Positions 9,222 through 63,000 of a DNA stretch of 64,000 nt are shown in pieces. The position numbers and the translations under genes were made by a program. Below the pieces are notes generated by a model that ran no database searches, had not been told where the DNA came from, and worked only from the letters and a program-made list of their open reading frames with translations. The DNA is from Beroe forskalii. Lineage: Eukaryota; Ctenophora; Nuda; Beroida; Beroidae. The DNA lies in contig WFMF01000024.1 of NCBI GenBank assembly GCA_011033025.1, positions 806,001 through 870,000 of the forward strand. Direction: 5' to 3'. Each line of letters begins with the position of its first letter. Position 1 is the stretch's first letter.

Positions 9222-9820
9222 CAAAGACTTGTCTCCCCCTATAAACTTGTTTATAACGACTCGAGGGAGAGAGGGAACTCGGCCTCCGGCAGACCCGCCC
9301 AGCACAACCCAGGGACGGTGAACTCTGGCTACCCAGAGAACACAAGAGAGAAGTGGGTGTGATCTGGCTACCCAGAGAACACAAGAGAGAAGTGGGTGTG
9401 ATCTGGCTACCCAGACTCCAGAGAACACAAGAGAGAAGTGGGTGTGATCTGGCTACCCAGACTCCAGAGAACACAAGAGAGAAGTGGGTGTGATCTGGCT
9501 ACCCAGAGAACACAAGAGAGAAGTGGGTGTGATTTGGCTACCCAGAGAACACAAGAGAGAAGTGGGTGTGATCTGGCTACCCAGAGAACACAAGAGCGAC
9601 TGAGAGGTGAGTGTGATCTGGCTACCCAAAAAGCACGACAGAGATGGGTGTATTCTGGCTACCCAGATAGTACACGAGAGAGGGAGAAGTGAACTCCCGC
9701 GATCCGGAGAAATGGGAACAGGACTTTTTGTATTTTTTAATGGGATTTGTTTTTATTTTAGAATTTTTATATGATTTTGCAAGGTGCAAGCAGGGGCTTG
9801 CAAATTGTTTTGAGGGGGAG
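9222..9820 (+). mobile_element. LTR-like unit, first interior, 5' truncated
   Basis: Starts abruptly at CAAAGACTTGTCTCCCCC, the tail of the LTR seen complete further on. Next come a short leader and the 39-bp array (9324-9690: ACCCAGAGAACACAAGAGAG plus GAAGTGGGTGTGATCTGGCT). The interior ends with a polypurine tract TTTTGAGGGGGAG directly before the next LTR at 9821. The left junction replaces CAAAGACTGC of the host repeat (compare 16250), suggesting recombination at a short identity. There are no retroviral-type genes. Frames of 80-170 codons on both strands result from the period being 13 codons. Confidence 0.6.
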
Positions 9821-12004: not shown

Positions 12005-12704
12005 CTCCGGCAGACCCGCCCAGCACAACCCAGGGACGGTGAACTCTGGCTACCCAGAGAACACAAGAGAGAAGTGGGTGTGATCTGGCTACCCAGAGAA
12101 CACAAGAGAGAAGTGGGTGTGATCTGGCTACCCAGAGAACACAAGAGAGAAGTGGGTGTGATTTGGCTACCCAGAGAACACAAGAGAGAAGTGGGTGTGA
12201 TCTGGCTACCCAGACTCCAGAGAACACAAGAGAGAAGTGGGTGTGATCTGGCTACCCAGAGAACACAAGAGAGAAGTGGGTGTGATCTGGCTACCCAGAC
12301 TCCAGAGAACACAAGAGAGAAGTGGGTGTGATCTGGCTACCCAGAGAACACAAGAGAGAAGTGGGTGTGATCTGGCTACCCAGACTCCAGAGAACACAAG
12401 AGAGAAGTGGGTGTGACCTGGCTACCCATAAAACACAGGAGAGAAGTGGGTGTGATCTGGCTACCCAGAGAACACAAGAGCCACTGAGAGGTGAGTGTGA
12501 TCTGGCTACCCAGAAAGCACGACAGGGATGGGTGTATTCTGGCTACCCAGATAGTACACGAGAGAGGGAGAAGTGAACTCCCCCGATCCGGAGAAATGGG
12601 AACAGGACTTTTTGTATTTATTAGTGGAATTTGTTCTTATTTTAGAATTTTTATATGATTTTGCAAGGTGCAAGCAGGGGCTTGCAAATTGTTTTGAGGG
12701 GGAG
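12005..12704 (+). mobile_element. LTR-like unit, second interior with 39-bp array
   Basis: Leader CGGCAGACCCGCCCAGCAC, then the 39-bp array (12045 to about 12572). Some units carry an extra ACTCCAG. Then CACGACAGGGATGGGTG variants, a spacer, and the polypurine tract TTTTGAGGGGGAG before the LTR at 12705. Same organisation as 9222-9820 and 14635-15428. No protein domains. Confidence 0.65.
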
Positions 12705-14634: not shown

Positions 14635-15428
14635 TCCGGCAGACCCGCCCAGCACAACCCAGGGACGGTGAACTCTAGCTCCAGAGAACACAAGAGAAGT
14701 GGGTGTGTTCTGGCTACCCAGAGAACACAAGAGAGAAGTGGGTGTGATCTGGCTACCCAGAGAACACAAGAGAGAAGTGGGTGTGATCTGGCTACCCAGA
14801 GAACACAAGAGAGAAGTGGGTGTGATCTGGCTACCCAGAGAACACAAGAGAGAAGTGGGTGTGATCTGGCTACCCAGAGAACACAAGAGAGAAGTGGGTG
14901 TGATCTGGCTACCGAGAGAACACAAGAGAGAAGTGGGTGTGATCTGGCTACCCAGACTCCAGAGAACACAAGAGAGAAGTGGGTGTGATCTGGCTACCCA
15001 GAGAACACAAGAGAGAAGTGGGTGTGATCTGGCTACCCAGAGAACACAAGAGAGAAGTGGGTGTGATCTGGCTACCAGAGAACAAGAGAGAAGGTGGTGT
15101 GATCTGGCTACCCAGAAAACACAAGAGAGAAGTGGGTGTGATCTGGCTACCCAGAGAACACAAGAGAGAAGTGGGTGTGATCTGGCTACCCAGAGAACAC
15201 AAGAGCAACTGAGAGGTGAGTGTGATCTGGCTACCCAGAAAGCACGACAGAGATGGGTGTATTCTGGCTACCCAGAGTACACGACAGAGGGAGAAGTGAA
15301 CTCCCGCGATCCGGAGAAATGGGAACAGGACTTTTTTTTATTTTTTAGTGGGATTTGTTTTGATTTTAGAATTTTTATATGATTTTGCAAGGTGCAAGCA
15401 GGGGCTTGCAAATTGTTTTAAGGGGGAG
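14635..15428 (+). repeat. 39-bp minisatellite interior with polypurine tract
   Basis: The longest of the three arrays, about fourteen units between 14700 and 15293. One damaged unit sits at 15074-15108 (ACCAGAGAACAAGAGAGAAG). The interior ends with TTTTAAGGGGGAG at 15416-15428. Because 39 is divisible by three, frames up to 227 codons on one strand and 131 on the other are open with 13-residue periods (REHKREVGVIWLP). These should not be annotated as proteins. Confidence 0.85.
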
Positions 15429-52744: not shown

Positions 52745-53506
52745 TAAGGGATGCTGTAGCAGGCATCGTCGTAGAGTTGTGGTGGTTGTTTAATCTCGAC
52801 AAAGCGGTAGACGACAAGTAATGCCTTCAGAGATCAGACTACTGAAGCACCCAAATCAACTGCTGCAACTACCAGAATGCAAGGCCCCGGTATTTGATAG
52901 GTCATCAGACCTGAGTTTCATAATTCTTTTCATTTCCAATCAACCTGATACTATAGCTTTCTAATAATAGGGTACCTCGTATCCTACGATCGTATTTTAT
53001 TTTCAATGGTTTGAATTCTGAAATTTAGAAGAAGTGATTCGGGTAGGAGCTAGGTTGGGTGAGCCAGACGTGAGCCGACCAACTGAGTCCCGAGGAACGC
53101 ATCTGGTGACCCCCGCCAAAGCTCACACTACTGTGCCTATGATCTGTTACTGGGATGATATTATTTTGGAAAGGATTTAGGGCCTGAGATATTCGATACA
53201 GTATAGCAGGAGTTACGACTTTGAGTCTGAGATTTGAGAATTTGTCCGGGGGCCCTGTGCCCGCCCTGTTTGCCAGGGCTTAAAACGAGCTGATTATGAT
53301 GAAGTAGTTTAGTATAATACTCTGATTGATTGCCAGCCATTATGTTGATAAATTAGCCATAATTTTGTCATGACGTTCTTACTACACTGGATCAAGTCAG
53401 TTGAATACGTTCACCTGCAGGGGCGAACACCTAAGGGCGCATATTGTGGAATGAAACACATCACATACTTGTTTATATGTTATTTCAGTAGGCAACTTGG
53501 TACTCT

Positions 53507-55965
53507 GCCGACGGAGGCTCACGGACCCTTCCCGGACCCTTGACGGACCCTTCCCGGACCCTTCCCGGACCCTTCCCGGGCCCTTCCCGGACCCTTCCCG
53601 GACCCTTCCCGGACCCTTCCCGGACCCTTCCCGGACCCTTCCCGGACCCTTCATGGACCCTTCATGGGTCCTTGACGGACCCCTCGCGGACCCTTCCCGG
53701 ACCCCTCACGGACCCTTCCCGGACCCCTAACAGTCCTTTGCATGAACCTTGTCTTAATTTTCCCGGACCCTTCCCGGGAACTTCCCGGACCCTTCCCGAG
53801 AACTTCCCGGACCCTTCCCGGGAACTTCCTGGACCCTTCCCGGGAACTTCCCGGACCCTTCCCGGGAACTTCCCGGGAACTTCCCGGACCCTCCCGGGAA
53901 CTTCCCGGACCCTTCCCGGGACTTTCCCGGGTCTTTTTCCTAAGTAAAAGGAAACGATACCTATTGGTCAGGAATGTGTTACAATGGTGTTTTGCCGTCA
54001 TAAAACACTTCGCATTATTTCCCGAATCACATTTTACCGAAAGGACCCGGGAACTTCCCGGACCCTTCCCGGGCCCTTCCCGGACCCTTCCCGGGAACTT
54101 CCCGGACCCTTCCCGGGACTTTCCCGGGTCTTTTTCCTAAGTTAAAGGAAACGATACCTATTGGTCAGGAATGTGTTACAATGGTGTTTTGCCGTCATAA
54201 AACACTTCGCATTATTTCCCGAATCACATTTAACCAAAAGGACCCGGGCCCTTCCCGGACCCTTCCCGGGAACTTCCCGGACCCTTCCCGGGACTTTCCC
54301 GGGTCTTTTTCCTAAGTAAAAGGAAACGATACCTATTGGTCAGGAATGTGTTACAATGGTGTTTTGCCGTCATAAAACACTTCGCATTATTTCCCGAATC
54401 ACATTTAACCAAAAGGACCCGGAACTTCCCGGACCCTTCCCGGAACTTCCGGACCCTTCCTGACTTTCCCGGGTCTTTTTCCTAAGTAAAAGGAAACGAT
54501 ACCTATTGGTCAGGAATGTGTTACAATGGTGTTTTGCCGTCATAAAACACTTCGCATTATTTCCCGAATCACATTTAACCAAAAGGACCCGGGAACTTCC
54601 CGGACCCTTCCCGGACCCTTCCCGGGAACTTCCCGGGTCTTTTTCCTAAGTAAAAGGAAACGATACCTATTGGTCAGGGATGTGTTACAATGGTGTTTTG
54701 CCGTCATAAAACACTTCGCATTATTTCCCGAATCACATTTTACCGAAAGGACCCGGGAACTTCCCGGACCCTTCCCGGGAACTTCCCGGACCCTTCCCGG
54801 GCCCTTCCCGGACCCTTCCCGGACCCTTCATGGACCCTTCATGGGTCCTTGACGGACCCCTCGCGGACCCTTCCCGGACCCCTCACGGACCCTTCCCGGA
54901 CCCCTAACAGTCCTTTGCATGAACCTTGTCTTAATTTCCCTAATTTTCCCGGACCCTTCCCGGGAACTTCCCGGACCCTTCCCGGGAACTTCCCGGACCC
55001 TTCCCGGACCCTTCCCGGACCCTTCCCGGGAACTTCCCGGACCCTTCCCGGGTCTTTTTCCTAAGTAAAAGGAAACAATACCTATTGGTCAGGAATGGTG
55101 TTTTGCCGTCATAAAACACTTCGCATTATTTCCCGAATCACATTTTACCGAAAGGACCCGGGAACTTCCCGGACCCTTCCCGGACCCTTCCCGGGAACTT
55201 CCCGGACCCTTCCCGGGTCTTTTTCCTAAGTAAAAGGAAACAATACCTATTGGTCAGGAATGTGTTACAATGGTGTTTTGCCGTCATAAAACACTTCGCA
55301 TTATTTCCCGAATCACATTTTACCGAAAGGACCCGGGAACTTCCCGGACCCTTCCCGGACCCTTCCCGGGAACTTCCCGGACCCTTCCCGGGACTTTCCC
55401 GGGTCTTTTTCCTAAGTAAAAGGAAACGATACCTATTGGTCAGGAATGTGTTACAATGGTGTTTTGCCGTCATAAAACACTTCGCATTATTTCCCGAATC
55501 ACATTTTACCGAAAGGACCCGGGAACTTCCCGGACCCTTCCTGACCCTTCCGGGAACTTCCCGGACCCTTCAGGACTTTTCCCGGGTCTTTTTCCTAAGT
55601 AAAAAGGAAACAATACCTATTGGTCAGAATGTGTTACAATGGTGTTTTGCCGTCATAAAACACTTCGCATTATTTCCCGAATCACATTTAACCGAACTTC
55701 CCGGACCTTTTTTCAGGAACTTCCTGACCCTTCCGGGAACTTTTTCCGGGAACTTCCTGACCCTTCCCGGGTCTTTTTCCTAAGTAAAAGGAAACGATAC
55801 CTATTGGTCAGGAATGTGTTACAATGGTGTTTTGCCGTCATAAAACACTTCGCATTATTTTTCGAATCACATTTTACCGAAAGGACCCGGGAACTTCCCG
55901 GACCCTTCCCTGGAACTTCCCGGACCCTTCCCGGGACGTTCCCGGTTCTTTTTTCGAAGTAAAAG
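53507..55965. repeat. Left satellite arm of the Merlin element
   Basis: Alternating parts: runs of CCCGGACCCTT and CCCGGGAACTT, and a conserved unit of about 115 bp with AGGAAACGATACCTATTGGT, GTGTTTTGCCGTCATAAAAC and TATTTCCCGAATCACATTT. There are ten such units and a broken eleventh at 55960. A block with CAGTCCTTTGCATGAACC occurs twice (53728 and 54908), so the arm grew by internal duplication. Open frames (PGPFPDPSRTLP-type) are artefacts. Confidence 0.9.
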
Positions 55966-56115
55966 GAAACGATAGGAATGTAGTTAGGAATGTAATAATG
56001 GACTTCTTGAGTAATAATTTGGATTACACAGGACATTTAATACTGAATATTAACACTAAAATAATAATAATAATAATACATTTATCTACAATATTTAATA
56101 TTAGTTCATATCATA

Positions 56116-57057
56116 TCACTTAAAAACCCTCTGAAAAAGCTGAGGAAGATCAACATTAAAAAGTTTCCGAATACTTTTGTCTGTTCTTGTGATTCCAAAC
56201 TTCTTCTTCCACATGAATTCCAGGAGAGCAAGTTGCATTGCGTTGGAATCCCTCCGAGCATTGCCATGTCCCTGCTTCAAGTGCTTCTTAGCATGAAACC
56301 ACATGCCTTCGCATGTGTTTGTGTGAACACCAGTCACAGGGTCCACAAACCCTTGTCTGTGGTTGACGACAAAATGTTTGTATCCATGTTTACTGAGAGA
56401 TTTGTAGCCACCCCACTTATCAGTCAGGATTGTGGTTCCCGGAAGCACATGCTCTGCTATCAGCCAGAGTAGGGTATGGTGATCTCTCCTGTTGTGTGGG
56501 CATTCCACGAGGAACACTTCACCAGTTGTCCGGGAGATTCCGCCAAGGACCCACTTACCAACCACTCTCCTCCCCCGGTTGTACTTCCGCTTGCCAAACT
56601 TTGATTCGTCTATCTCGATGATGTGTCCAGGTCCTCCAATTCTGGTCGGGTTGCCGTTGTTGAGGATATCCTCTGCCATGCACTGCCGAATCCCCTTGAA
56701 GACAGACCGTACGGTTTTTGCATTCATTGATATCAATCGAGATGTGTCGCACACACTGGTGAAGTTGCAGAAGAACCACAGGAGCTTGAAGAAGATACCA
56801 AATGAAAGGGTACGGTTGGATAGGAGGCTGCCACAGCGTACAGATGTGAAGTGGCGACAACCAGGACACTCCCAACAGAAGCCATCTGAATACTTGTTGG
56901 CAGGACAGGTCTTCAGCACCTTGTACCGGTTGCAGGCGTCGCAGAATTGGTGAGGACGAAGGACTCCAATGTTGAGGGAATACTGTAGAGAAGAGCGTTC
57001 TGATGAGAAGAATCCAGACCTGCAGAGATCTTCGTAGGAAGGATGGTTTTGAGTCAT
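56116..57057 (-). CDS. Merlin transposase (IS1595/ISXO2-like DDE)
   Basis: 313 residues from ATG at 57055-57057 (A at -3). The frame is open five codons further to GTG 57070-57072, but a TAG lies upstream, so ATG is preferred. The N-terminus has a zinc-ribbon-like pair CDAC (Cys39/42) and CPGC (Cys64/67). The catalytic core has EIDESKFGKRKYNRGRRVVG (Asp150), ILTDKWGGYKSL (Asp213) and HTNTCEGMWFHAKKHLKQGH (Glu250), the DDE triad of Merlin elements; bacterial relatives often differ at the third position. Ends LFQRVFK-TGA. No stops or frameshifts, so possibly active. It would act in the nucleus, binding the element's tips and cutting and joining DNA. Confidence 0.93.
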   Translation of the reverse strand: MTQNHPSYEDLCRSGFFSSERSSLQYSLNIGVLRPHQFCDACNRYKVLKTCPANKYSDGFCWECPGCRHFTSVRCGSLLSNRTLSFGIFFKLLWFFCNFTSVCDTSRLISMNAKTVRSVFKGIRQCMAEDILNNGNPTRIGGPGHIIEIDESKFGKRKYNRGRRVVGKWVLGGISRTTGEVFLVECPHNRRDHHTLLWLIAEHVLPGTTILTDKWGGYKSLSKHGYKHFVVNHRQGFVDPVTGVHTNTCEGMWFHAKKHLKQGHGNARRDSNAMQLALLEFMWKKKFGITRTDKSIRKLFNVDLPQLFQRVFK

Positions 57058-57085
57058 TGTGATGATGGCCACCGTCGAGTTATTC

Positions 57086-57093
57086 TATATATA
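57086..57093 (-). promoter_or_regulatory. Candidate TATA box for the transposase
   Basis: TATATATA on the minus strand, 29 bases upstream of the ATG. It would give a very short 5' leader, as in some compact transposons. Farther upstream, ATAACATGTGATCATATTCA occurs twice in tandem (about 57192-57235). Confidence 0.35.
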
Positions 57094-57479
57094 CAATTCG
57101 GGCATGTGTTACATGAGTACTTATTGCATGGCTGATAGGTATGTTGTTTGTACTACAATTACCGTAACTTGATCCCGTGATAGAGATCGTATAACATGTG
57201 ATCATATTCATATAACATGTGATCATATTCATATAACGGCCATCAAATAGGATCAAATTACGTAGGGTCCTATGATGGATTGTCTGCAATCGGTGGACAA
57301 TCTCAAAACATTGAAACCCGAGCCACTTTGCGAGGGCCGAGGGCTCGCGCATTGTCGAATTCGTAATGTGATTTTGAGCAAAAGTGTATTCGGCCAGTCA
57401 ATTTCACTAGCCGGTACTCGACTACTTGACAATCAACTAGTCGGGGAATTCAGTTCATGGTTGATGAGAAATTCCCTAT

Positions 57480-57670
57480 AACCCAATTGGTAGTGGTACC
57501 GCATCAATTGGTACTTCACTAGTTGGTACTTTACTAGTTGGTACTCTAATAGTTGGTATTCGACTAGTTGGTAGTTGGTACTCGAATAGTTGGTACACGA
57601 AGAGTTGGAACTTGACTAGTCCGCTAGTTCGTACTTGACTAGTTGGTACTCGAATAGTTGGAACTTGGCT
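57480..57670. repeat. Minisatellite of ACTAGTTGGTACTCGA units
   Basis: About ten imperfect 16-20 bp units containing TAGTTGGTAC, immediately between the transposase promoter region and the right arm. The GGTAC core is also in the element's tip (CTTGGTACTC), so it could be internal transposase-binding sites or chance. Confidence 0.7.
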
Positions 57671-58543
57671 AGTCGGGTCCGGGAAGTTCCCGGGTCCTTT
57701 TGGTAAAATGTTAAAATGCGATTCGGAAAATAATGCGAAGTGTTTTATGACGGCAAAACACCATTGTAACACATTCCTGACCAATAGGCATCGTTTCCTT
57801 TTACTTAGGAAAAAGACCCGGGAAAGTCCCGGGAAGGGTCCGGGAAGTTCCCGGGAAGGGTCCGGGAAGTTCCCGGGAAGGGTCCGGGAAGTTCCCGGGT
57901 CCTTTTGGTTAAATGTGATTCGGGAAATAATGCGAAGTGTTTTATGACGGCAAAACACCATTGTAACACATTCCTGACCAATAGGTATCGTTTCCTTTTA
58001 CTTAGGAAAAAGACCCGGAAAGTCCCGGAAGGGTCCGGAAGGGCCCAGGAAGGGTCAGGAAGTTCCCGGTCCTTTCGGTAAAATGTGATTCGGGAAATAA
58101 TGCGAAGTGTTTATGACAGCAAAACACCATTGTAACACATTCCTGACCAATAGGTATCGTTTCCTTTTACTTAGAAAAAGACCCGGAAAGTCCTGGAAGG
58201 GTCCGGGAAGTTCGGGAAGGGTCCGGGAAGTTCCCGGGAAGGGTCCGGGAAGTTCCCGGGTCCTTTTGGTTAAATGTGATTCGGGAAATAATGCGAAGTG
58301 TTTTATGACGGCAAAACACCATTGTAACACATTCCTGACCAATAGGTATCGTTTCCTTTAACTTAGGAAAAAGACCCGGGAAAGTCCCGGGAAGGGTCCG
58401 GGAAGTTCCCGGGAAGGGCCCGGGAAGGGTCCGGGAAGTTCCCGGGTCCTTTCGGTAAAATGTGATTCGGGAAATAATGCGAAGTGTTACATGACGGCAA
58501 AACACCATTGTAACACATTCCTGACCAATAGGTATCGTTTCCT
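57671..58543. repeat. Right satellite arm of the Merlin element, inner part
   Basis: Five copies of the left arm's 115-bp unit in reverse orientation (ACCAATAGGTATCGTTTCC at about 57780, 57976, 58150, 58340 and 58525), separated by GGGAAGGGTCCGGGAAGTTC runs. The arm is interrupted at 58548 and continues at 61048-61440. Confidence 0.9.
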
Positions 58544-58547
58544 TTAA

Positions 58548-61047
58548 CCCATTAGTGCCCAAGGAAAAACTGGCAGAGTATTTTATATAACATGTTTATT
58601 TTCCGAACCACACTGGGCCACAATGACTAAGTTTAAAATCCCAATACTGGTACTTCAGTAGTTTTCGAGTTATGAACCTGTTGCTTTCGGGCAACACTGG
58701 GCTGTTGCCTTGGGGAAACATTACTTTATCTCTCAATATTTGGTATCTAAAAGTGAATTTATGGTTTATTCTACTGAGCAAGTAGCCACAGATGGAAATG
58801 GAAATCATATGCAATACTCACGGGAACCCAAAGCCTCAAAAAACGTACTGTTGCCCACAGGCAACACTGGGGAGAATGACATTTAACTATTTATTTCACG
58901 TTCTTGGACATTCATATCACGTGTGGACGGAAACAATATGCCTTTAACATATATAATCATTAAATATGGGATGATTTCCATAAATGCTGTTGCTTTTAGG
59001 CAACACTATGCCTGGATTTTACATAGCATCATGCGACAATATTTTTCAACTACCAACTACGAGAATGGTTATTTTCTTGCCTTATTTGGTGTGCTAGATG
59101 TCTATACTTCTATAGATGTGAAGTTTGGCATAAAATTTCAAAGATTATTGTTGCTTCTAGGCAACACCAGGATTCAACATGATAAATTTTGCTCCAAAAT
59201 ACATTTCTATAAAACTGCATGTTGGAATTTTATGCATTGGCAGGACCTTCTTTGCACTGACCCCTGGCTGTAGATTGAAAAGACAGATAATCTTCATAGA
59301 TGAGGCCATTGGGGTCCATTAGAAAACTGGATCGTAATAATTATTATTATTCAAATGGACTTTAGTTAACATAGAATTATGTCCCTTACTGCATGAGTTA
59401 CTGGATACGCCACATTTCTGATTTCTGCCTTGACATGACCGTTACCCCCATTGAAGCATTGAAGCGCACTCTATTTACATAACTCCGAGCTTGCAAAATG
59501 GCTCTGACTGACCTTCAGAGTTTACATTTTCCTTAAAAGAATGGTTAGATGATTGTGAAAAGGATCGTGGATTTATAGGCACCTCGTAGGTATACTGTAT
59601 AGCCAATAGTAATTATACACAGGTGAATAATGAATATTCGTTAAGTTTCCGTTGTGTGCTTGGGTTATGGATTGCCCCTTGAAAGTTGCAACTGGATGTT
59701 TACAGACACAGATAGGCTCAACATGGCCACAGTTAGGCATTTTATAAGGAGACTTTCGTCATTTCAGTAATTTGTGATTAGGTATGCAATGTCCCTGAAG
59801 TCTGAAAAGTGAAAGCTGAATAGACGTAATGTGTAGAAATGAGTGAAGGTTGTTTATAGACTCTTACAGGACATGCAAATGCAGGTGGAACCCACTTGAT
59901 GGTATTTTTGTCAGTTTTCTGCTATTGCTAGATCTCTCACCTGATCCAGTCGAAAACTCCACACTGTTACTACTCATAATCTGTACGTTCAGGGCTATGA
60001 AGAGTATTGCACCATCTATAGGGAGCTTTTAATTTTACTTGCCTATTGTGCACAGACCTTTTTTAACACCAATAGCAAATACCATTACAGTACATGCCAA
60101 TCATAATTAAATATATTTTTATAATGTTTTTAATTAATGTTGGTTCCGTTGAAAAATTAAGGACTCTGGTCAAGTTCTGAACGACCCAAAATACAAGTGT
60201 ATCCCAGTGTTGCCCAGAGGCAACAGATATAGTTTATTTTAACATTGCTGAACGAACAATTTAAACATTTATATCAGAAAGAACAATATGTTTATTTAAA
60301 TTGGCGTGCGTGTGGTAGGCCATGCCTCACAATATAATGGGGTGTCCTGGTGTTGCCCAGAGGCAACAAAGCAACAATTTTTATATATTTTAGCCTTTCT
60401 GAACGTGCAGCATACAGATTTCTATTACATAGTATCAGCCTTTTTGTTAAAAGCCGTTAATTTCGCTATTTTGGGCAAATTTTCAGCTTCTCCCAGTGTT
60501 GCCCAAGAGCAACACTTATAAAATGTTGCATATAACGTTCTTCTGCTTAGTGAATTTGCAATTTGGCTCAATTATAAAGCAATCAGACGATGCAAAACGG
60601 TCAGATAAAACATGATTCTGAGGTTTCTAGCCCATTTAGAACTGTTGCTTTTGGGCAACAGCCCAGTGTTGCCTAAAGGCAATCGGAACTTTGAATGCTT
60701 ATATCTCCTGACTGGTTTGGACTAATGAGTTCATTCTTTGACCATCTGAATGCCACGTCCAATGACCATTTAGGTGTATGCAGCAATAAAATCAAAAATC
60801 TGGTTTAGCTACCTCAATTAACCCAATTACTGAAGGTGGTAGAAAATCCTATCAAAAAATAAATGGTCAAATTAATTGGTCAATTAACTGGTTGCCTGAT
60901 GCCAAAAAGATATATTTCGAGATCAGGAAGTGTGTGAAATTTAATAGAGCTGGTGTTGTTGAAAAACGAAATTAATATCTCATTCAGAGAAGCCACAATT
61001 ACTCAAAACGTAACTGTTGCTTTTAGGCTACGTTGGGCACTAATGGG
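58548..61047. mobile_element. Nested 2.5-kb non-autonomous element, possibly piggyBac-like
   Basis: Inverted ends CCCATTAGTGCCCAA (58548) and TTGGGCACTAATGGG (ends 61047), 15 bp. TTAA precedes the left end (58544-58547), as for piggyBac, but TCCA follows the right end; about 15 bases of the satellite unit are missing there. The interior has about nine GTTGCC-spacer-GGCAAC palindromes (58680, 58855, 58990, 59152, 60213, 60354, 60497, 60650 and 61015), often with CCAGTGTTGCC resembling the tip. No transposase frame. Confidence 0.65.
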
Positions 61048-61440
61048 TCCAGGAAAGTTCCGGGAAGGGTCCAGGAAGGGTCAGGAAGTTCCTGAAGGAA
61101 GATCCCGAGGAAGGGTCCGGGAAGTTCCCGGGAAGGGTCCGGGAAGTTCCCGGGAAGGGTCCGGGAAGTTCGGGAAGGGTCCGGGAAGTTCCCGGGAAGG
61201 GTCCGGGAAGTTCCCGGGAAGGGTCCGGGAAAATTAAGACAAGGTTCATGCAAAGGACTGTTAGGGGTCCGGGAAGGGTCCGTGAGGGGTCCGGGAAGGG
61301 TCCGCGAGGGGTCCGTCAAGGACCCATGAAGGGTCCATGAAGGGTCCGGGAAGGGTCCGGGAAGGGCCCGGGAAGGGTCCCGGAAGGGTCCGTCAAGGGT
61401 CCGGGAAGGGCCCGGGAAGGGTCCGTGAGCCTCCGTCGGC
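61048..61440. repeat. Right satellite arm of the Merlin element, outer part
   Basis: GGGAAGGGTCCGGGAAGTTC array with GGTTCATGCAAAGGACTGTT (61238), the mirror of the left arm's block at 53728. It then passes through GGGTCCGTGAGCCTCC into the terminal repeat. Frames here are repeat artefacts. Confidence 0.85.
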
Positions 61441-61464
61441 AGAGTACCAAGTTGCCTTTCAGTA

Positions 61465-63000
61465 ACATTCAGGCTAAAATTAACAAAATCTATTTTTGCG
61501 CCCAAAACTATACCAACCCTTTAAGATCCAACCACAGTGAACACAGAAAGAATGAAATCGTGAGATTCCTTCTTTTTTTAATATAATTAAATATTAAGTA
61601 AGTATTTATTCATAAGGGTACACAATAATAACGTTCAGAAAGAAAAGGCAGATAAGCTGCTATATGAAAGAGAATAAGTCCTGCAGTCCACGTCCCGGTG
61701 CAAGGTACTAGGCACTTGCCAGGACAGAGAGGGACCACAAATCTCCAGATTTGAGGTCCGGATATTTAATTAACTACAACATTTGGACGGATTTGGCTGA
61801 GGTACCATGAAATAATACCATGTACAAATACTGGAAATGATAAGAAATGACATTGACTGATTGTTTTTAATACTCAGTGAGTTTCGCAGTCCTCACCTCG
61901 TAACATCTGTGCCAGGAACCCCTCAAGGATAGGGTGTGTGGAGAGAGTGCTAAAAGTTCTGTAGACGGGCCCTACTCAACTGGGATTTGTAGTTGGGATA
62001 CTCCACAAAGCACAGCAGCAAGCCAGCAGTCGATATCAGGATAATATCATGTAACTCTCGGAGTTAACCAGAATTACAGACGGAATTTCATCCAATGTTA
62101 CGAGGTTGAAAACCTCAATGGAACACTTGTAAAGAAGTATCCCTGCACATCCATAATATCAGGTAAAATTCCCACCAGAGAGAGGATGTGTGTAGATTAC
62201 AGGGCTTCACAAGGTTCATAAGGTTTAGGAATAAATAAAAACATATTATCAATAATAAACAAATAATTTAACAAACTCCCAAGTCCCATTATGAGGAAAG
62301 CAGGGTCAAATAACACTGATCATAATAAAGCATTACATAGTGTCTGATCAATAAACGTTATAATAAGTTAAAGGGTTTAATTAGTTGATAACCTGGTAAC
62401 TTGTTTAAGAAAGTAGAGGGAAAAGCGTTGCCCAGTACATCATAGAAAACAACATACGTTGCCTGGTAGAAGAATCAAACCGTTTTCAGACCATAACCTC
62501 CAAGATATCAATCAAAGAATTGTTTGAAAGAGGAGCGATAAGGAGATAAAAAGAAATAATGAGATTCGAAGACAGGTTGCAGGTTGCAGGTGCATAACCA
62601 CACACGGGTTGATGAGATTCTTAACAACAGGCTCACGGAACTGCAGCACATGACACCTTTAATAAGAGTTCTGATCACTCCCATTTGTGCATAAATACCC
62701 AAATCATTAGAAGCAAATAGAGGAAGTAACATTGGAAGTCCAAGAGGGAATTGACAGAGTCGTCAAGCAGTAAATTATATCAGTACGAAAAACCATAGAC
62801 ATCCCATGTTAGGAGGTAGGGTTAGATACAACAGTACTATAGTAAGATTGGTAGGTATATTAAGTTGTTTACGAAGATTTAAGCTCCGTAGAAGAAAACT
62901 AAAACTTTCAGAAGAAAAGATTTTATTTCGCATTTCGTTACACATATCTAGTTACAATAACTATCAAAGAAGCAAAGAGAATATTATCATAAATCATTTG
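61465..63000. other. Dispersed repeats, no recognised gene
   Basis: 61645-61815 resembles 44120-44230 (GATAAGCTGCTATATGAAAG). The block at 62515-62660 resembles 45620-45760 (GATGAGATTCTTAACA; GTTGCAGGTTGCAGGTGC). These pairs suggest diverged copies of the 44-46 kb segment. No coding frame stands out. Confidence 0.35.

Follow-up and report, generated by a model that had tools for sequence, protein, structure and literature searches.

Merlin transposons are relatives of IS1595/IS1016 that generate an 8-9 bp target duplication and carry terminal inverted repeats (TIRs) of 24-462 bp, and matches to Merlin were previously reported in three ctenophores (PMC8101967). Some Merlin families contain tandem repeats, and in one of them a 52-bp repeat region is present twice, in opposite orientations; Merlin is described as lacking the Zn_Tnp_IS1595 domain save in a few proteins (PMC8101967). 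In Galileo, a member of the P superfamily, the TIRs are long and internally repetitive, conservation is confined to the outer ~40 bp and the repeats contain experimentally demonstrated binding sites for the N-terminal domain of the transposase, and the same source gives the function of the repeats of Foldback and Phantom as untested (PMC3688188). Internally repetitive TIRs of great length are found across several transposon superfamilies. Here we describe an element in a 64,000-nucleotide stretch of the genome of the ctenophore Beroe forskalii (contig WFMF01000024.1, positions 806,001 to 870,000 of the forward strand), referred to as the window. The sequence predicts that this element is almost certainly a complete Merlin-superfamily DNA transposon, inserted as one unit with an 8-bp duplication, and its tips run into long arms of repeats with an 11-bp step. 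Phased-array arms were not found described for Merlin, and PMC8101967 was the single source on Merlin found to report tandem repeats, in a literature search that left subscription papers mostly, and Repbase, outside its reach.

The element spans 53491..61456, with the order TTTCAGTA then GGCAACTTGG... at the left flank and ...CCAAGTTGCC then TTTCAGTA at the right. An earlier model reading of the letters alone (the original prediction) had proposed matching tips of about 45 bp and an exact 8-bp target duplication. The left TIR (53491..53535, plus strand) and the right TIR (61412..61456, minus strand) matched at 45/45 bp, with 3 mismatches within the outer 60 bp, and both began with GG (GGCAACTTGG...) as expected of Merlin. 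With up to 3 mismatches allowed, the 22-bp tip was present twice in the window and at most 0 times across 100 shuffles. The duplication, TTTCAGTA at 53483..53490 and 61457..61464, was identical at 8/8 positions. As a control, each left flank from 13 copies was paired with the right flanks of the other copies (n=156 pairings), and the best agreement was 6/8, reached by 4/156. Both parts of the proposal were upheld.

The transposase is encoded on the minus strand, a point on which the original prediction was silent. Its frame of 313 codons (57057..56119, stop at 56116-56118, the gene occupying 56116..57057) contained zero internal stops, and the predicted catalytic residues D150, D213 and E250 were present and invariant across 21 aligned rows. 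A profile search confirmed the proposed IS1595 kinship, as PF12762 (DDE_Tnp_IS1595) matched with 49.9 bits against a cut-off of 27 (E 4.5e-13) and was the only Pfam family above cut-off. The proposed zinc-ribbon cysteines were borne out in part: C39, C42, C64 and C67 form CxxC...CxxC, and C39, C42, C51 and C64 were invariant in the 21 rows, but C67 varied. No Pfam zinc-domain match was found for the transposase, as for most Merlin proteins in the surveyed portion of the literature, yet the CxxC...CxxC is there. The Pfam search also returned no P-type transposase with a THAP domain, the hallmark of Galileo and the P superfamily. Sequence matches to solved structures were absent up to E 1. Whole-chain Foldseek matches were integrases with poor superposition and were used for the core only, and the N-terminus gave no structural match in a comparison that hardly probed that part. 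A protein search with the transposase gave 323 proteins, of which the best 120 were listed. The species-named rows in the first 50 were Mnemiopsis leidyi (P0013, 65%; P0022, 66%; P0048, 68%) and Bolinopsis microptera (P0039, 58%), with spider, rotifer and nematode relatives appearing from rank 85 on. With its DDE_Tnp_IS1595 domain, GG tips, 8-bp duplication and single transposase of the ~310-320-aa class, the core of the element is an ordinary, well-preserved member of the superfamily.

The element sits inside a short dispersed repeat, of which 57 bp at the left and ~69 bp at the right (duplication included) are the two halves. The left half (53434..53490) ends with the left TTTCAGTA and the right half (61457..61525) begins with the right TTTCAGTA. 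Each had 39 further listed matches in searches that scored the best 40 of 72 (left) and 40 of 82 (right) candidates, using queries that stopped a single base before the element at either end. Left-half matches began at 53434 or a neighbouring base in nearly every row listed. The joined target repeat without the element was found at 44 places in the genome that differed from it at 2 or 3 positions (control 0), and the 8-mer at these sites was TTTCGGTA in 41/44. The original prediction had called for a search for empty sites with a single TTTCAGTA. The 8-mer region was indeed single at all 44 places, but none of them had TTTCAGTA unmutated, and these are therefore paralogous unoccupied sites and not an empty allele. 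In the proposed series of events the DDE transposase would cut at the GG tips and join them to a staggered cut, leaving the 8-bp duplication, and the whole unit would have arrived in the dispersed repeat by cut and paste.

Further copies with the same tips, which the original prediction had also proposed to look for, were found throughout the genome (216 Mb, 1,134 contigs). Matches to the tip with no more than 3 mismatches numbered 131 (60 + 71; controls 0), and the predicted boundaries 53491/61456 are shared with other copies. In the extracted loci (L numbers; C numbers are contigs) 13 tip pairs were readable, a sample that is not random, with copies ranging from 129 to 7,966 bp. Exact 8- or 9-bp duplications flanked 10/13 pairs, at 8/8 in the window, L040, L041, L042, L049, L050, L056, L057 and L058 and at 9/9 in L053 (TTACAATTT). 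The three others weigh against the proposed series of events, the duplication being incomplete in L039 (7/8) and L043 (6/8) and absent in L046 (2/8). L045, L054 and L055 yielded no tip pair in a scan that applied word and duplication rules. Intact transposase frames were present in L045 and L046, 63.5% and 61.3% identical to that of the window. The same outside flank, AAGTCCTCGGGC, was seen at five family tips (L011-L014 on C186 and L021 on C270), and two of these tips lie in L047, pointing the same way at a distance of 6.8 kb. Here the tip was copied along with its flank, by duplication or within another repeat.

The total length is 7,966 bp, or 5,466 bp after subtraction of a nested element at 58548-61047. 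The original prediction had remarked that 5.5 kb is long for Merlin, and most of this length proved to lie in inverted arms built from an 11-bp repeat that begins behind the tip, not in extra genes. On the left (plus strand), a subterminal array with the 11-bp unit CGGACCCTTCC in ~37 copies (53522..53930) is followed by inner compound arrays with periods of ~164-197 bp and 11-bp units inside each (53858..55974). On the right (minus strand) lie inner compound arrays with the opposite orientation to those on the left (57675..58547) and a subterminal 11-bp array (61048..61425). The 258 bp at 61171-61428 were complementary at 98% to 53563-53820. The arms measure ~2.5 kb on the left and ~1.3 kb on the right without the nested element. 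The 45-bp perfect tip lies within the survey range for Merlin TIRs, and the arms counted with their arrays exceed it. In running into inverted arms the tip is unlike those of Merlin in the surveyed portion of the literature. Inverted arms of short tandem repeats on both sides resemble the architecture of Foldback and Phantom, a likeness and not membership, and we take both to belong to superfamilies other than that of the window element. A 22-mer of two array units occurred 35 times in the genome at up to 1 mismatch (C292, C201, C270, C700 and C880), and 35/35 occurrences were inside, or within ~0.4 kb of, a family tip, showing that the unit is no independent satellite. Stretches of the L030 (C700) arrays were 82-88% identical to those of the window, and L015 (C201) matched the left 222 bp of the element at 93%. 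Long arrays are prone to mis-assembly, and the same-orientation tips with identical flanks in L047 and the pair without duplication in L046 could suggest that array arms of separate copies were stitched together. We consider such an artefact highly improbable here, as the duplication and the unoccupied target copies tie both outer ends to one insertion, a tie that holds for the outer ends and not for the inner array lengths.

Periodicity was measured over the outermost 350 bp at 25 ends from the extracted loci, which represent three tip groups and are not independent. The best shift was 11 or 22 in 24/25 ends; the exception, the L047 end, had its best shift at 10 (0.39), with shift 11 at 0.37. 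Six transposase groups were viewed, four with 11-bp arrays, one with 21-bp arrays and one with none in 3 kb. The period was 11 or 22 in the group of the window and L039-L044 and 11 in the groups of L045/L048-L050/L053/L057/L058, of L046/L052 and of L054, while the group of L055/L056 had a period of 21 (at one end 43 scored marginally higher). In the group of L059 no array was found. The array units of the groups were CGGACCCTTCC, CCGTTAACCGA, GCACACCTGGG, AGTCTCGGAGA and about TTAGTGGAATTCCACTATCGAG, and the first two may be related to each other. The ~22-bp tips were more alike than the units, with a terminal GG and a CGA close to position 20 in 8/8 tips compared, and by eye the tips of L054-L056 look like the window tip read from the opposite strand. 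An 11-bp phasing common to several lineages of one genome, with the period shared and the unit not, is unlike Merlin in the surveyed portion of the literature. Two generalizations were rejected. Arrays are not found in all Merlin lineages here, given L059 and the hardly periodic L047 end. Nor is palindromy a general rule for array units. In a palindrome test with arm 7 and 2000 shuffles per unit, the numbers of equally good shuffles were 4 (window 22-bp unit), 5 (L055), 148 (L056), 259 (L045 type), 883 (L044 type), 887 (L054), 1723 (window 11-mer) and 1971 (L046 type).

We propose, with about an even chance of being right, that the arms are helically phased accessory transposase-binding sites as in Galileo. 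The N-terminal zinc-ribbon and helix-turn-helix part of the transposase would read the ends. The 11-bp step, close to one helical turn, would place the sites nearly on one face of the DNA, fitting a row of transposase molecules, and the arrays would assist transposase in loading and pairing at the ends. The conserved outer tip with variable inner repeats makes Galileo the best-tested likeness; the window element differs in having a transposase of another superfamily, and repeat binding is experimental in Galileo and proposed by analogy here. Several observations weigh against an accessory-site role. The 129-bp copy L041 has a perfect duplication, so the arms are perhaps dispensable, and second-type tips were paired only 92 and 156 bp apart (C500, C259). 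The array unit changes from lineage to lineage, and L059 (35% identical) was without a related tip or array in 3,001 bases. With a periodicity cut-off of 0.45 for control windows, the L043 right end (0.43) and L047 (0.39) fell below it. Strong periodicity was also seen in 12/152 control windows from the same window (0 at 11, 22 or 33) and in 24/260 windows outside elements in the extracted loci (6 at 22, 0 at 11). Slippage and gene conversion might instead make minisatellites behind the tip that the transposon merely spreads, a credible explanation to which we give a little under an even chance. It would fit the variation of units between lineages, short copies nearly without array (L041) that still have duplications, and a genome rich in other tandem repeats, and the tandem repeats of other Merlin families are read in this way in PMC8101967. 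Neutral origin fits less well with an exact 11-bp step in 4/6 groups and 21 bp in one, always directly behind the tip, with arrays mirrored at both ends wherever both were readable, and with the absence of shift 11 from all 152 + 260 control windows. We regard the accessory-site role as somewhat more likely than neutral slippage. A rather unlikely extension of the accessory-site role is a two-part end code, in which a ~22-bp cut tip is combined with a phased array whose unit turns over with the zinc-ribbon/helix-turn-helix domain, so that each autonomous Merlin would serve its own non-autonomous copies and ignore those of its cousins. The presence in one genome of related transposases with similar tips and different phased arrays allows a direct test of whether the arrays are a binding platform or a neutral satellite.

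The original prediction had called the insertion recent and the element possibly active. Perfect tips, the duplication and the intact frame agree with this, but the transposase region is single-copy and another element has inserted since. Among the best 40 of 54 candidates, the 1.66-kb transposase region had a full-length match to itself alone; the next long match was C239 (76% over ~0.8 kb), followed by C1002 (66%), C358 (69%) and C225 (69%), and short pieces of ~80-110 bp reached 83%. No sister copy close enough to demonstrate recent movement was found among these, which weakens the case for a recent arrival. Differences between the window and C239 at codon positions 1-3 were 0.118, 0.072 and 0.51 (codons 161-313) and 0.206, 0.135 and 0.524 (codons 44-172). 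These values were used in place of the ratio of nonsynonymous to synonymous divergence (dN/dS) because synonymous sites were saturated, the NG86 dS being 3.6 in one piece and undefined in others. The codon-position differences show that the transposase lineage has been under long constraint and, like the perfect tips and duplication, speak for activity. A working transposase in this copy is predicted from the intact sequence, less firmly than the original prediction had it. The element may equally be correctly described and immobile now, the last full copy of a non-moving lineage, and our judgement on this is evenly divided. Its single-copy transposase region with a next long match of 76%, the broken 85%-like copy on C239 and the nested element with one flank lost would be expected of an immobile element. 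The intact frame, catalytic residues, tips and duplication would not, and the six residues at which the transposase departs from columns where its relatives agree in all but two include none that is catalytic.

The nested element (58548..61047) has CCCATTAGTGCCCAA tips and is without long frames of its own. TTAA adjoining CCC...GGG tips is the piggyBac-type signature, and the nested, piggyBac-like element carries TTAA beside such tips at the left only (58544-58547); the right TTAA is absent in the window, where the flank is array sequence already. An uninterrupted repeat variant with the same TTAA lies at 58356-58367, and the right remainder of the interrupted array unit was presumably lost via recombination between array units. 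The 15-bp tip occurred 131 times in the genome at up to 1 mismatch (controls 5 and 4), and 116 times when preceded by TTAA (controls 0). Tips recurred at ~2.5 kb spacing genome-wide; a few pairs were separated by 5.7-6.2 kb and may represent full-length relatives. Within the nested element a short hairpin-like motif, TGTTGCCC..GGCAACA, recurs many times, and Rfam gave no matches in the window.

A genome search with the transposase gave 132 rows, and surroundings were viewed for about 15 of these. By hand count 26/132 rows began at residue 150 or 151 with at least 2 TAA stops. Such half-transposases were enclosed by the tips of L049, L050, L057 and L058, each flanked by a perfect 8-bp duplication, and these dead half-gene copies have therefore apparently moved in trans. 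A second Merlin group (L056 4184-6919 and L055 from 3874) had intact frames with a transposase ~39% identical to that of the window, 21-bp arrays containing TAGACGTCTA or TAGTGGAATTCCACTA, and a tip with 139 genome occurrences at up to 2 mismatches. L045 adjoins a nucleoside-transporter stretch with 16 protein matches (Mnemiopsis 62%, Bolinopsis 64%, best 88%). Other arrays were also seen. A 15-bp array, TTGGTACTTGACTAG, lies off the 11-bp step at 57508-57673 between the transposase and the right arm, the middle of L043 holds a 13-bp array, TCGACTAGTTGAC, and a 39-bp unit, TCTGGCTACCCAGAGAACACAAGAGAGAAGTGGGTGTGA, forms three arrays within 6 kb at 9324-9681, 12045-12565 and 14681-15289.
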